The notes beneath the pieces were generated by a model that saw only the letters and a list, made by a program, of their open reading frames with translations, made no database searches and had not been told where the DNA came from. From Luteitalea sp. TBR-22 (GTDB lineage: Bacteria > Acidobacteriota > Vicinamibacteria > Vicinamibacterales > Vicinamibacteraceae), in assembly GCF_016865485.1 (NCBI RefSeq), contig NZ_AP024452.1, forward strand, positions 3,866,501 through 3,930,500: DNA of 64,000 bases, written 5' to 3'. The position numbers and the translations under genes were made by a program. This document shows, one piece after another, positions 19,638 through 60,026 of this stretch. Numbering within the stretch: the stretch's first letter is position 1; every line of letters begins with the position of its first letter.

Positions 19638-19711
<74 letters not shown>

Positions 19712-19750
19712 AGCCTGAGGTGGGAGCGCTCGTTCAGGTGAGGCGGAGAT

Positions 19751-19825
19751 TGGAGCGGGAAACGGGATTCGAACCCGCGACTTCGACCTTGGCAAGGTCG
19801 CACTCTACCACTGAGTTATTCCCGC
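19751..19825 (-). tRNA. tRNA-Gly (GCC)
   Basis: The minus-strand cloverleaf has acceptor GCGGGAA/TTCCCGC, discriminator U and an encoded CCA. The anticodon arm CGACC-TTGCCAA-GGTCG gives anticodon GCC, and the T arm is GCGGG-TTCGAAT-CCCGT. It lies 39 nt upstream of tRNA-Cys in the same orientation, so the two are probably co-transcribed. Confidence 0.95.
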
Positions 19826-19930: not shown

Positions 19931-20248
19931 TCAGCGGGCCAGCTTCAGGCCGGCGACGCCGAGCAGGATGAGGCCCAGGCTCGCCAGGCGGAGCGGGGTC
20001 CGCGGCTCCCCCAGCAGCAGCATGCCCAGCAGGGCCGTCCCCGCCGCGCCGATGCCCGTCCACACCGCGTAGGCGGTCCCGATCGGCAGCGAACGCGCGG
20101 CCACGGCGAGACAGTACATGCTCGCGGCCAGCAGCGCGAGCGTCGCCAGCGACGGCCCCGGACGCGTCCAGCCATCGGTGTACTTCAGCCCGATCGCCCA
20201 GGCGATCTCGAACGACCCGGCGATGAGCAGCCAGCCCCAGGGAGTCAT
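19931..20248 (-). CDS. SMR-family exporter (Gdx/SugE type)
   Basis: A 105-aa four-helix small multidrug resistance protein. Glu in the first helix ([23 protein letters not shown]) is the coupling carboxylate. The [25 protein letters not shown] signature fits the Gdx/SugE branch, which exports guanidinium, rather than broad EmrE drug exporters. It would act as an antiparallel dimer in the inner membrane with proton exchange. It appears monocistronic. No guanidine riboswitch is recognisable upstream; instead the heptamer array at 20269-20402 begins 21 nt before the gene. Confidence 0.85.
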
Positions 20249-20268
20249 GCGGGGAGTATCACATCAAC

Positions 20269-20402
20269 GGGAGTCGGGAGTCGGGAGTCGGGAGTCGGGA
20301 GTCGGGAGTCGGGAATCGGGAGTCGGGAGTCGGGAGTCGGGAATCGGGCACCGGTCGGCGGGCACCGGGCACCGGGGCTCGGGACACCGGGCGCCGGGCA
20401 TC
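20269..20402. repeat. Heptanucleotide array, GGGAGTC then GGGCACC
   Basis: Sixteen consecutive 7-nt units run without a register slip from 20269 to 20380: GGGAGTC x6, GGGAATC, GGGAGTC x3, GGGAATC, GGGCACC, GGTCGGC, GGGCACC x2, GGGGCTC. One 8-nt unit and two more heptamers (GGGCGCC, GGGCATC) follow. The unit changes but keeps the pattern GG....C. It fills most of the space between the SMR gene and yraN and is not a credible coding sequence. Confidence 0.95.
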
Positions 20403-20438
20403 CACATCGCAGGGGCGGTGAACCTTCCGAAGGCCGTT

Positions 20439-20468
20439 CGAATGACGAAGGCCGCCAGGTGCCATCAC
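20439..20468. repeat. Thirty-nt repeat, copy A
   Basis: The segment starting CGAATGACGAAGGCCGC and containing GGTGCCA recurs with few changes at 21036-21067. This copy runs into the yraN stop codon and includes a CAGGTG/CACCTG hairpin, so a role at mRNA 3' ends is possible. Confidence 0.65.
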
Positions 20469-20866
20469 CTGACGGCGTCGAAGGCGTTGCGGAAGACCTC
20501 CGCGCTCGGGTCGCCCTCGGGCGGCCAGTGCACGACGACGACGTCGAAGCGGCAGGGGACGGGGCCGAGGCGGGAGCGCGCGAGGAAGGCCTCGGCGACG
20601 CGCGTCAGCGTGCGCTGCTTGCGCCAGGTGATGGCCGCAGCTCCCCCACCGAACGTCTCGTCGCGCCGGGTCTTCACCTCGACGAACACCAGCGTGTCCT
20701 CGTCGCGGGCGATCAGGTCGATTTCGCCGAAGGGCGTGCGGAACCGCGAGGCCAGGATGGCGTAGCCGCGACGCCGCAGGGCCGCGCTCGCCACGGCCTC
20801 GCCGTCGACGCCGAGGGCCTGACGGGGATCAGGAGTGGAGGCCGGGCACGCCTGCGCGCGAAACAT
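20465..20866 (-). CDS. yraN: YraN (UPF0102) nuclease-fold protein
   Basis: A 133-aa UPF0102/YraN protein with the restriction-endonuclease-like fold. Motifs are G-E-x-VA...LRRRGYAILASRFRTPFGEIDLIARDEDTLVFVEVKTRRDETFGGG, with the GEIDLI, VFVEVK and TR catalytic-like residues all present. The 3' end has WRKQRTLTRVAEAFL and RFDVVVV. YraN proteins are thought to act on DNA or recombination intermediates, but their role is not settled. The gene stands alone on the minus strand; the preceding minus-strand gene is 200 nt upstream beyond a hairpin. Confidence 0.87.
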   Translation of the reverse strand: MFRAQACPASTPDPRQALGVDGEAVASAALRRRGYAILASRFRTPFGEIDLIARDEDTLVFVEVKTRRDETFGGGAAAITWRKQRTLTRVAEAFLARSRLGPVPCRFDVVVVHWPPEGDPSAEVFRNAFDAVR

Positions 20867-37813: not shown

Positions 37814-37862
37814 CGATCCCGATCCGCGATCCCCCGATCCCCGCTCCCCGATACTCAATCCC
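37814..37862. repeat. Heptanucleotide array, CGATCCC type
   Basis: Seven units in exact 7-nt register: CGATCCC, GATCCGC, GATCCCC, CGATCCC, CGCTCCC, CGATACT, CAATCCC. Read on the minus strand the unit is GGGATCG-like, so it shares the GGG-led form of the 20269 array. Confidence 0.8.
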
Positions 37863-37872
37863 CCCCCAAACA

Positions 37873-48596: not shown

Positions 48597-48631
48597 GGTG
48601 CCCGACGCCCGGTGCCCGGTTCCCGGTTCCC
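48597..48631. repeat. Heptanucleotide array, GGTGCCC/GGTTCCC type
   Basis: Five in-register 7-nt units: GGTGCCC, GACGCCC, GGTGCCC, GGTTCCC x2. GGTGCCC is the complement of GGGCACC in the 20269 array. The array stops one base before TATACT, so it occupies the -35 region of the next gene. Confidence 0.85.
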
Positions 48632-48632
48632 G

Positions 48633-50596: not shown

Positions 50597-50612
50597 CGGC
50601 AACCGGGGACAG

Positions 50613-50689
50613 CAGGCTGCAGGCCGTCGGCTGTGGGCTGCCGGCGGTAGGCTGTAGTCCGTAGGCTGCAGGCTGTAGGCTGTAGGCTG
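50613..50689. repeat. Heptanucleotide array, TAGGCTG type
   Basis: Eleven units in strict 7-nt register: CAGGCTG, CAGGCCG, TCGGCTG, TGGGCTG, CCGGCGG, TAGGCTG, TAGTCCG, TAGGCTG, CAGGCTG, TAGGCTG x2. The array ends one base before the ATG of the next gene, so it occupies its entire ribosome-binding region. It fills most of the 94-nt gap after the xdhC-like gene. Confidence 0.92.
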
Positions 50690-50690
50690 T

Positions 50691-51884
50691 ATGCCTGCTT
50701 TCGGCCGCGCGTTCCTCTCCGAGTTCCCGCTCGACCCGTCGATCACCTACCTCAATCACGGCACCGTCGGCGTCACGCCGTCGCGCGTGCTGGCCGCGCA
50801 GCAGGCCATCCGCGACGAGATCGAGCGACAGCCCAGCCGGTTCCTGTTGCGTGAGCTGCACGCACCGGCCACCTCGGTCGGCTGCCCGCGGGAGGAGACA
50901 CCGCGCCTGCGCGTCGCGGCCGGCCAGGTCGGCGCCTTCCTGGGCGCGCAGGCCGACGACCTCGTGTTCGTCGACAACATCACGACCGGCGCCAACGCCG
51001 TGTTGCGGTCCTTCCCCTTCGAGCCCGGCGACGAGCTGCTCATCACGGACCTGGGATACGGCGGCATCGCGGCGGTGGCGCGCTTCGCCACCCGGGAGAA
51101 GGGCGCCCACGTCACGACGGCGACCATGCCCTGGCCGTTCACGCCCGAGGGCATCGCCGACGCGATCGTCGAGGCGGCAGGACCGCGCACGCGACTGGCC
51201 GTGGTCGACCACATCGCGGCCGACAGTGCCCTCGTGCTGCCCGTCGCCGACATCGTCGCGCGCCTGCACGACAAGGGCGTGGCCGTCATGGTCGACGGCG
51301 CCCACGCGCCCGGCGCCATCGCCGTGGACATCGCCGCCATCGGCGCCGACTGGTACGTGGCCAACCTGCACAAGTGGATGTGGGTGCCGCGCAGCAGCGG
51401 CATCCTGTGGGCGGCTCCCGAGCGTCAGGCGTCGTTGCACCCGGCAGTCATCTCCTGGGGGCTCGACCTCGGATTCACCACGACCTTCGACCTGCCGGGC
51501 ACGCGCGACCCGTCGGCGCACCTGGCCGCACCGGCCGCGATCGCCCTGTTCGAGGAGTTGGGCACCGAGGCGGTGCGCGCGTACAACCACGACCTGGCAT
51601 GGCAGGCGGCGCACCACGTGTCGGAACGCTGGGGCACGGCGTTCACCACGCCCGAGTCGATGATCGGCACGATGGCCACCGTGACGCTGCCTGCCTCGCT
51701 CGGCACGACGCGCGACGACGCGCTGCGGCTCCGGGATGCGCTGCTCCTCGAGGACGGCATCGAGATCCCGGTGCACGCCTATCGCGGCCAGTTGCGGGCC
51801 CGCATCTCGGCACAGGTCTACAACGACATGGACGACATGGAGCGGCTCGCCGACGCGATTCTGAAGCGCGCCGCCGTGCGCTGA
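50691..51884 (+). CDS. Class V aminotransferase (isopenicillin-N-epimerase-like)
   Basis: A 397-aa PLP enzyme of the class V/NifS-like fold, closest in pattern to isopenicillin N epimerase-type proteins: ITYLNHGTVGVTPSRVLAAQQ, DDLVFVDNITTGANAVLRSF, VDHIAADSALVLPV, VAVMVDGAHAPGAIAVDI (PLP Asp) and WYVANLHKWMWVPRSSGILW with the Schiff-base Lys at about residue 228. No cysteine-desulfurase Cys loop is seen. Its ATG follows the heptamer array with no Shine-Dalgarno; the repeat itself (GGCTG) is the only purine-rich sequence there. Reaction unknown: epimerase, lyase or aminotransferase. An amidohydrolase gene follows 20 nt later. Confidence 0.8.
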   Translation: MPAFGRAFLSEFPLDPSITYLNHGTVGVTPSRVLAAQQAIRDEIERQPSRFLLRELHAPATSVGCPREETPRLRVAAGQVGAFLGAQADDLVFVDNITTGANAVLRSFPFEPGDELLITDLGYGGIAAVARFATREKGAHVTTATMPWPFTPEGIADAIVEAAGPRTRLAVVDHIAADSALVLPVADIVARLHDKGVAVMVDGAHAPGAIAVDIAAIGADWYVANLHKWMWVPRSSGILWAAPERQASLHPAVISWGLDLGFTTTFDLPGTRDPSAHLAAPAAIALFEELGTEAVRAYNHDLAWQAAHHVSERWGTAFTTPESMIGTMATVTLPASLGTTRDDALRLRDALLLEDGIEIPVHAYRGQLRARISAQVYNDMDDMERLADAILKRAAVR

Positions 51885-57738: not shown

Positions 57739-58734
57739 ATGCTCTTCAAGGGCCAGACCCTCGGCAAGTATCGCATCCTGTCACCACTGGGAAGCGGCGG
57801 GTTTGGCACCGTCTACCTCGCGCGCGACACCTGGCTGGACAAGCAGGTGGCCATCAAGGTGCCCCACCGGCAGGGCCTCGACTTCTCCGAGCTGCTCCGC
57901 GAGCCGCGCCTGCTGGCCAGCGTCAACCACCCCAACATCGTCGCGATCACGACGGCCGACAAGCAGGACGACGTCTTCTTCATCGTGATGGAGTACGTCG
58001 CCGGCGAGACGCTGGAGAGCGTACTGGAGCGTGAAGGTGCGCTCGACCTGCCGCGGGCGCTCGACTACACCGTGCAGATCGGCAATGCCGTCGACCACGC
58101 GCACAAGCAGGGCGTGATCCATCGCGACCTGCGGCCGGCCAACGTGCTGGTCTCCGAGAACGGGATGCTCAAGGTGGCCGACTTCGGCACCTCGCGCTTT
58201 CTGGAGATCGCCGCGCACGGCACGACGGTGATCGGCAGCCCGGCGTTCATGGCGCCCGAGCAGTTCCAGGGCAAGGCCGTGTTCGCGTCGGACCTGTACT
58301 CGGTGGGCATCACGATGTACCAGATGCTCACCGGCGAGTTGCCGTACGACCCGCCGCCGCCCTCGGCGCTGCACAAGCTGCTCACCGGTGAACTGGTGAC
58401 GCCGCCGCGATCGCGCAATCCCGCGATCCCGCGCCGCCTGAACGACATCATCATGAAGTGCCTGGCGCCGCAGGTGGCCGACCGGTACACGCGTGCCGCG
58501 GACCTGCTCGACGACCTGCTCGCCGCCAAGCCGGTCATCCTGGGCACGCCGGGACCGCGCGCCATCGCCGACCTCGGCCTCGACGACGCGGGGCGACCGG
58601 CGCGGACGGCCGCCCCTCCCCTGCCACGTGCGGTGAAGTACCAGGACCGCGAAGCCGCCCGTAACTGCTGGCACTGCCGGCGGCCGCTGCACAACCTCGC
58701 GACCCGGTGCCCCTTCTGCGGGGAACAGCAGTAA
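57739..58734 (+). CDS. Ser/Thr protein kinase with C-terminal zinc ribbon
   Basis: A 331-aa Hanks-type kinase. Kinase motifs are LGSGGFGTVYLARD (glycine loop), VAIKVP (ATP Lys), EYVAGETLESVL, VIHRDLRPANVLV (HRD with Arg replacing the usual Lys), KVADFGTSRF (DFG), and GSPAFMAPEQF with SDLYSVGITMYQMLTGELPYD. The catalytic residues are otherwise intact, so it is probably active. The C-terminus adds CWHCRRPLHNLATRCPFCG, a four-Cys zinc ribbon, in place of the transmembrane and sensor domains normal in such kinases. It is therefore a soluble kinase; its target is unknown. Its stop codon lies in the arm of an AT-rich inverted repeat. Confidence 0.9.
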   Translation: MLFKGQTLGKYRILSPLGSGGFGTVYLARDTWLDKQVAIKVPHRQGLDFSELLREPRLLASVNHPNIVAITTADKQDDVFFIVMEYVAGETLESVLEREGALDLPRALDYTVQIGNAVDHAHKQGVIHRDLRPANVLVSENGMLKVADFGTSRFLEIAAHGTTVIGSPAFMAPEQFQGKAVFASDLYSVGITMYQMLTGELPYDPPPPSALHKLLTGELVTPPRSRNPAIPRRLNDIIMKCLAPQVADRYTRAADLLDDLLAAKPVILGTPGPRAIADLGLDDAGRPARTAAPPLPRAVKYQDREAARNCWHCRRPLHNLATRCPFCGEQQ

Positions 58735-58849
58735 TTTGAAATTGGAAAATTTGAAATTCACGTGGGGCGCGGCTTCGCCGTCGCCCCTCGCGACGCCACG
58801 CGCGGCACGGCCGACAGGCCGGCCGCCGATCAATTTCAAATTTCAAATT
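58733..58849. repeat. AT-rich inverted repeat between convergent stops
   Basis: A left arm of AATTTGAAATT copies (58733-58758) and a right arm of AATTTCAAATTTCAAATT (58832-58849) enclose about 75 nt of GC-rich sequence with its own hairpin (GGGGCG/CGCCCC). The arms contribute the TAA stop codons of both flanking genes. It may act as a bidirectional terminator or be a miniature mobile-type element. Confidence 0.65.
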
Positions 58850-59912: not shown

Positions 59913-59961
<49 letters not shown>

Positions 59962-59996
59962 TGGGGCCAGGGTCAGGTCCAGAGGGCGCGCGGTCC

Positions 59997-60024
59997 GGTG
60001 CCCGGTGCCCGGAACCCGGTGCCC
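59997..60024. repeat. Heptanucleotide array, GGTGCCC type
   Basis: Four in-register units (GGTGCCC x2, GGAACCC, GGTGCCC) end 3 nt from the stop codon of oxidoreductase 2. The unit is the one seen at 48597 and, as its complement, in the 20269 array. Confidence 0.85.
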
Positions 60025-60026
60025 GC

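Follow-up and report, generated by a model that had tools for sequence, protein, structure and literature searches.

In cyanobacteria, heptanucleotide repeats carry the name short tandemly repeated repetitive (STRR) sequences. The closest described arrays are those of GGGAATC in Xanthomonas and GGGGAYT in Nostoc, which are intergenic, lie on both strands and partly form convergent pairs (Rehm et al., 2015, PMC4692102). According to that report, the arrays lie almost exclusively nearer the open reading frame (ORF) on their 5′ side, whatever the direction of that ORF, and, on the coding strand, are overrepresented at distances of up to 50 bp from stop codons; for G-rich units, an outward direction rule is therefore already published. 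The same paper, which also mentions the heptamers of Calothrix, describes a quadruplex formed in vitro by (GGGAATC)3GGG with a T1/2 of 50.4 °C in K+, and in the account given there its authors did not identify a regulatory role for GGGNATC repeats. The question of why heptamers are the dominant repeats in some bacteria was raised in 2007 (cited in PMC4679880 and PMC4692102). As relayed by these two papers, the long simple sequence repeats of Mrazek et al. (2007) resemble the present ones in being dominated by heptamers, for which slippage was proposed, and 7 nt is attributed to the same work as a polymerase contact length; long repeat runs are further stated to be more frequent in genomes above 4 Mb with a G+C content above 60% (PMC4692102). 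The TAACTGA direct repeats of marine Beggiatoaceae are likewise numerous intergenic heptamers (169 sets), but consist of a single unit, related heptamers being rarely or never repeated, and are described as lying in particular directly upstream of start codons (PMC4679880). The constant-length, variable-sequence repeats of Bacillus are similar in combining one length with several families, but that length is reported as 52 or 20–21 nt rather than 7 (Subirana and Messeguer, 2021, PMC8161180). For Acidobacteria, no description of heptamer repeats was found in a literature search that covered mainly papers available without subscription. In the searchable text of one survey the term "Acidobacteria" appears only once, in a figure legend (PMC4060949), and in that of a short tandem repeat survey across the tree of life, which reports no average enrichment in bacteria, neither heptanucleotides nor Acidobacteria could be found by term search (PMC12699852).

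The array considered here belongs to Luteitalea sp. TBR-22, an acidobacterium from duckweed whose chromosome is a single contig of 6,468,984 bp (PMC8852301). It lies in a window of 64,000 nucleotides, to which the coordinates in Table 1 refer. Read in steps of seven, positions 20269–20380 hold 16 heptamers in register: GGGAGTC six times, GGGAATC, GGGAGTC three times and GGGAATC, followed by GGGCACC, GGTCGGC, GGGCACC twice and GGGGCTC. From 20381 (GGGACACC) the register shifts by one base, and a degenerate tail continues to about 20400. Tandem Repeats Finder (TRF) reports 11.6 copies of CGGGAGT at 20268–20348 (95% matches) and 7.9 looser copies of CGGGCAC at 20345–20400 (68% matches). When period 7 is scored at +1 for a match and −2 for a mismatch, the array reaches 69; a 1.044-Mb sample of the genome, simulated three times with an order-3 Markov model, scored at most 15. 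Direct reading, the score and TRF thus confirm the preliminary description, which had reported 16 heptamers in perfect register with a unit that changes partway; its statement that every unit up to 20380 starts with GG and ends with C holds for all 16. The drift of the unit that it described is seen as a change, and is better rendered as a GGGAGTC block with two GGGAATC units and then a looser GGGCACC block.

Table 1. Heptamer arrays of the window and the genes that flank the focal array (window coordinates)
Feature	Position	Strand	Basis
Small multidrug resistance (SMR, sugE-like) gene	19931..20248	-	Pfam PF00893, E 3.9e-26
Focal array: in-register period-7 array, GGGAGTC/GGGAATC block then GGGCACC-type block	20268..20376	+ (G-rich strand)	Score 69
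Degenerate tail of focal array; one extra base at 20381-20388 breaks the register	20377..20400	+	Sequence, TRF
yraN-family (UPF0102) gene	20465..20866	-	Pfam PF02021, E 9.6e-28
Period-7 array, CGATCCC type, weak	37814..37863		TRF, 7.1 copies, 73% matches; under score thresholds
Period-7 array, GCCCGGT type	48600..48632		TRF and period-7 score
Period-7 array, GTAGGCT type	50612..50691		TRF and period-7 score
Period-7 array, GGCTTAC	59914..59952		TRF and period-7 score
Period-7 array, CCGGTGC, in the same gap as 59914..59952	59995..60025		TRF and one further scan

The focal array lies outside any called gene, in a 216-bp gap upstream of the SMR gene, whose start codon is 19 bases away; on the other side, 88 bases lie between the in-register array and the stop codon of the yraN-family gene, or 64 when counted from where the tail ends. 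Relative to the SMR gene, the G-rich strand is the antisense one and runs outward. For a comparison with phase-variation (contingency) repeats, which switch expression through their copy number from within the coding frame or promoter of a surface or adaptive gene, the relevant observations are this place outside called genes and upstream of the SMR gene. The array had been described as not coding, which is very likely right, but a plus-strand ORF at 20118–20765 stays open across it; this ORF is antisense to two recognisable genes and was passed over by the codon-based gene caller. Genes for tRNA-Cys and tRNA-Gly lie beside the SMR gene, at 19638–19825, and the gene order common to TBR-22 and a related complete genome, G001, which we take to be L. 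pratensis, starts at the SMR gene, just past these tRNA genes. The SMR gene was matched in three of four other genomes of the genus, and a yraN-family gene adjoins it at the three orthologous loci. The gap between them holds GGGTATC, GGGTGCC and GGGTACC units in G001, with a score of 9 that is below the array threshold, and two GGGCACC units plus three of ATTCGTC in G002; that of G004 (61 bp) holds no array.

Four features support assignment of the focal array to the GGGNATC class of Xanthomonas and Nostoc. That class is defined by at least two tandem units, at least one of them GGGAATC and the others GGGANTN; the array has eleven consecutive GGGARTC units, two of them GGGAATC, its GGGCACC part not fitting GGGANTN. 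It carries four or more uninterrupted GGG tracts, and hence is capable of forming a quadruplex (G4) by the rule used for the class; it is intergenic and, at its 19 bases from the SMR start codon, within 50 bp of the ORF on its 5′ side; and its unit is dispersed over both strands of the genome, GGGARTC in three tandem copies giving 198 forward and 219 reverse overlapping matches in TBR-22, against none for the reversed-letter control. A preference for four units is a further trait of the class; the detection threshold used for TBR-22 covers the longer arrays. The reversed-letter control (CTRAGGG in three copies) gave 34 matches in G102, an 8.4-Mb genome of the same phylum that probably has a heptamer family of its own. 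More generally, the arrays of TBR-22 share with those of Rehm et al. (2015) the GGGAATC/GGGANTN units, their heterogeneity, the intergenic location on both strands, the nearness to the 5′-side ORF, the excess at stop codons and some convergent pairs, and differ in that GGGAGTC predominates. Like STRR sequences they are built of heptanucleotides, in a different lineage, and the earlier comparison with cyanobacterial repeats was apt, though such repeats are known well beyond cyanobacteria.

Period 7 dominates the tandem repeats of this genome. Forty evenly spaced 20-kb stretches of TBR-22 (800 kb), searched with an array threshold of score 12 or more, contained 100 period-7 arrays, whereas each other period from 1 to 30 gave between 0 and 16; the next were periods 14 (16 arrays), 21 (15) and 9 and 12 (12 each), and periods 5, 8, 10, 11 and 13 gave 2, 0, 1, 1 and 1. 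An order-3 Markov control contained no period-7 array. The preliminary description had counted a period 7 no commoner than other periods as evidence against it, and this comparison in the genome sample came out the opposite way. The density in the 1.044-Mb set, 126 per Mb, extrapolates to about 800 arrays genome-wide, of which the focal array is one. A 400-kb sample of G001 held 70 period-7 arrays against 0–16 of every other period (16 of period 14, 14 of period 8).

These arrays lie almost entirely between genes. With genes called by a simple codon-based script (0.80 genes per kb, 89% coding; the published count for TBR-22 is 5,364 in 6.47 Mb, PMC8852301), the intergenic share of period-7 arrays was 100 of 105 in 864 kb of TBR-22 and, for a 500-kb sample of G001, 90 of 93; arrays within called genes do exist, numbering 5 of the 105 in TBR-22. 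Arrays of periods 6, 9 and 12 were intergenic in 0/10, 0/14 and 0/12 cases in TBR-22 and in 0/5, 3/7 and 0/4 in G001, and those of period 15 in 4/12 and 0/5, respectively. Among TBR-22 gaps, arrays occupied 18 of 64 convergent, 47 of 237 co-directional and 12 of 94 divergent ones; the corresponding figures for G001 were 15/51, 46/163 and 6/51. The idea that intergenic DNA consists generally of decayed arrays was discarded, the lag-7 signal being gone once arrays were masked (z 0.01 in TBR-22, −0.21 in G001).

The units are drawn from a restricted set. After removal of two overlapping stretches (L035 and L077), as in all statistics on units, direction, stop proximity and inverted partners, the 132 arrays in 1.044 Mb of TBR-22 fell into 40 unit classes, the ten commonest making up 70%, where random heptamers from gaps would give about 113; in G001, 128 arrays fell into 52 classes (ten commonest 56%; random, about 115). 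Families in TBR-22 include GGGARTC, GGGCACC, GGCTCAN, GAAATTT, GGCAGTC, GACGTTT and GAACGCC. Compound arrays, in which the unit changes in register, number 19 of 132 in TBR-22 and 28 of 128 in G001, and among arrays of at least six units they make up 16/41 and 24/47. The in-register change of the focal array is thus a common trait in TBR-22; GGGAGTC and GGGCACC each form separate arrays elsewhere, and stand side by side at chromosome position 1487951.

It is possible to read the focal array as a selected G-quadruplex element on the strand antisense to the SMR gene, tuning its expression or ending transcripts. The run of eleven GGGARTC units, the quadruplex that the related (GGGAATC)3GGG forms in vitro, and a predicted fold of the G strand (−60.9 kcal/mol with quadruplexes allowed, including one quadruplex, against −29.9 for the C strand, both under RNA parameters) are consistent with this, as is the recurrence of the GGG...C spacing in the orthologous gaps of G001 (GGGTATC type) and G002 (two GGGCACC). 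However, by the rule of four GGG tracts only 45 of 132 arrays in TBR-22 and 31 of 128 in G001 are G4-capable, and among the incapable remainder (87/132 and 97/128) the families free of G-tracts keep the same location and direction. In addition, the orthologous gap of G004 lacks an array, and a regulatory role was not reported by the authors of the in vitro work (PMC4692102). A selected element of this kind is accordingly a reading that we regard as unlikely; a G-quadruplex may form on this strand, though as a mere by-product.

The direction of the arrays bears on the same point. Each array was labelled by its unit as read outward from the nearest gene, and pairs of arrays of the same family were scored as agreeing or disagreeing. 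In TBR-22, 719 of 944 pairs agreed and 225 disagreed (random flips: mean 472, maximum 555 in 1000 trials), and in G001 516 of 781 agreed and 265 disagreed (random flips: mean 391, maximum 444), so that outward direction is a tendency, weaker in G001. Orientation by gene sense, as would be expected at the RNA level, was rejected as a general rule (483 to 461 in TBR-22, 432 to 349 in G001); for arrays within 15 nt of a gene, agreement by gene sense does predominate (212 to 108 and 139 to 90), yet less strongly than agreement by the outward rule (265 to 55 and 182 to 47). The family orientation labels of one test were picked after the data had been seen, and the claim rests on the label-free tests and on fresh loci: at 20 further loci taken from GGGAGTC matches, 13 GGGARTC arrays pointed outward and 4 inward, 3 inside called genes being left uncounted. 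The focal array obeys the rule. What is new relative to Rehm et al. (2015) is that the published rules of position and direction hold for units without G-tracts too, period, location and direction being kept by GGCTCAN, GACGTTT, TGATGCC, GAACGCC and others. Since these three properties are common to families without G-tracts, quadruplex formation is unlikely to be their cause, and the TBR-22 genome thereby separates the dominance of heptamers from the quadruplex reading of the best-studied case.

Arrays also crowd stop codons. An array edge that faces a stop codon is no more than 5 nt away from it in 36 of 136 cases in TBR-22 and 44 of 137 in G001, where random placement in the same gaps would give a proportion of about 0.10; for edges that face a start codon the figures are 7 of 100 (0.068 expected) and 7 of 103 (0.050 expected). 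That the arrays supply the stop codon themselves is insufficient as a cause, as arrays without a sense stop triplet crowd stops too (23/88 against 7.1 expected in TBR-22, 17/82 against 7.0 in G001). Nor does the stop codon appear to be part of a first unit, the array period predicting the stop in 2 of 51 cases (p = 0.41, TBR-22) and 6 of 45 (p = 0.09, G001), and enrichment of TAG stops at arrays was not significant (p = 0.06 and 0.35). Between the two species, 28 pairs of orthologous genes have an array no more than 20 nt from the stop in at least one member, one of the 28 involving a gene truncated at the block's end. The proteins of 14 pairs can be aligned on both sides up to their last residue, and in 7 both species carry an array there, with differing units.

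These patterns allow a scenario in which gaps in this lineage lose their content again and again and are filled anew after breaks, 3′ ends being extended by heptamers from a limited, species-specific set of units with a fixed, telomere-like polarity and then joined, the focal array being one such product. Repeats reading away from both flanking genes would follow from 3′-end addition and joining; the direction rule is indeed symmetrical for start and stop sides (pairs across the two sides agree 327 to 91 in TBR-22, 214 to 130 in G001), arrays stand flush with stop codons, the same gaps are reused with different units from a limited vocabulary, and a Ku search of seven genomes of the family gave a match in every one. 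However, no reverse transcriptase (RVT_1) match was found in TBR-22 or G001, Ku was unmatched in G009, which has GGGARTC matches, and the failure of the period to predict the stop codon leaves annealing at the stop unsupported. We therefore hold this scenario, for the lineage as for the focal array, to be very improbable.

A further alternative would derive the arrays from the arms of palindromic elements resembling MITEs or REPs, spread by transposition, with solitary arrays as their remnants. The AATTTGA family lies at both ends of a repeated palindrome, the GGCTCA family flanks a recurring AGAGCA...TGCTCT centre, 10 of 27 same-gap pairs in TBR-22 match at 6/7 or better when one array is inverted, a level reached by about 5.5% of pairs from different gaps, and TBR-22 has two Y1 transposase matches. 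Against this, an inverted partner in the gap accompanies GGGARTC in only 2 of 16 cases in TBR-22 and 1 of 9 in G001, and CCGGGYA in 1 of 12 and 1 of 17; same-gap pairs in G001 match better inverted in 16 cases and better direct in 21; and the outward rule survives removal of arrays with inverted partners and of the AT-rich element (343 of 461 with 118 against in TBR-22, 363 of 559 with 196 against in G001, p = 0.0005 each). For the focal array itself, the best inverted match to its right, before the yraN-family gene, scores 4 (GGGAGTC) or 7 (GGGCACC) against a cut of 9, and a palindromic element with inverted ends in this gap was rejected. Taken over all arrays, such an origin seems to us rather improbable.

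Palindromic elements were observed in their own right. At window positions 58733–58849, an element of about 110–130 bp has inverted AT-rich heptamer ends (AATTTGA ... AATTTCA), which stand out in a genome of 71% GC, around a GC-rich core; more copies of it occur in the sampled stretches, where 18 arrays of the AATTTGA family were listed or counted. Elements of the form (GGCTCAN)n-AGAGCA...TGCTCT-(NTGAGCC)n were seen in stretches L035, L054 and L055 and in the block of TBR-22 used for the synteny comparison, often beginning a few bases past a stop codon, and possibly represent a mobile or terminator-like family.

That comparison set a 264-kb block of TBR-22 against 300 kb of G001 (175 reciprocal best hits, median protein identity 83%). 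Orthologous gaps measuring 40 bp or more in each species numbered 72: 11 had arrays in both, 8 in TBR-22 only, 14 in G001 only and 39 in neither. Corrected for gap length, the expectation for shared gaps is 6.2 (p = 0.004; Fisher p = 0.015). The focal gap, with its subthreshold array in G001, is outside these 11. The shared gaps never contained an identical unit (0 of 11), and in 2 of 11 the units were alike at 6 of 7 bases against 7.3% of random pairs, a figure that is flattered if anything, as shared gaps were given their best unit pair and the background consisted of single random pairs. Beside the system of Rehm et al. (2015), then, TBR-22 and G001 share gaps and not units; related and alike in gene order, the two genomes make unit turnover measurable through the different units found in the same gaps.

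Beyond this pair, GGGARTC in three tandem copies is present in 10 of 60 genomes, TBR-22 included, and in 14 of 297 genomes of the phylum, TBR-22 and G001 included, some of them from other families. Six period-7 arrays were found in 120 kb of G002 and six in 60 kb of G005; 60-kb samples of G004 and G006 contained none, though both genomes have GGGARTC matches elsewhere. A sample of the order (20 stretches from 19 genomes, 336 kb) held 18 period-7 arrays with other units, whereas period 14 accounted for 8 arrays and periods 8 and 21 for 7 each. In searches for Ku, Y1 transposase and RVT_1 (20 genomes each), no candidate tracked array richness. Short tandem repeats are error-prone in assembly, and an artefact of assembly or sequencing could in principle have made the copy number or the unit change of the focal array. 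This is extremely unlikely, given that the TBR-22 assembly combines MiSeq 2 × 300, mate-pair and Nanopore reads (PMC8852301; deposited as DRA011791 and DRA013041), that an array of 109–133 bp fits one 300-base read, and that arrays of this kind are present in further genomes at the level of genus, order and phylum.

The explanation we favour, and consider probable if well short of certain, is that slippage proceeds seven bases at a time, units mutate locally and are amplified again, and the resulting arrays are tolerated between genes. In this model, both the origin and the turnover of arrays would lie in replication slippage (or template switching), for which 7 nt would be the preferred step in the lineage. 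Were one unit to acquire a point mutation and then be copied in further 7-nt steps, a block of the new unit would result, which may account for the change from GGGAGTC to GGGCACC; the preliminary remark that slippage of one unit alone leaves the consensus unchanged is true, but mutation of a unit and its re-amplification would change it. Selection would purge arrays from coding sequence, and for that reason they would persist in gaps and flush with stop codons. The focal array would then be expected to have no dedicated function at its locus, being one heptanucleotide array among many, akin to the G-rich GGGNATC repeats of Xanthomonas and Nostoc. We infer this mechanism from the pattern of the arrays, with one genome per species compared. 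Plain slippage does not predict the direction rule or the limited vocabulary of units (40 classes against about 113). Further, a 7-nt polymerase contact should be general in bacteria, yet array-rich genomes look scattered, as the 14 of 297 and the empty samples of G004 and G006 suggest. The few arrays that lie inside called genes also count against the model.

Other repeats accompany the heptamers in G001. Octamers form a second constant length there (stretches L063–L082), for example CATTCCGG at L064 7999–8034, the 14 period-8 arrays in 400 kb of G001 comparing with none in the 800-kb sample of TBR-22. In addition, gaps of G001 (stretches L064 and L087) contain, after their heptamer arrays, REP-like hairpins, for example GTAGCCGTCGACCTTGGTCGACGG and GTAGGGCCGGCTCTCCGAGCCCGGCCC.
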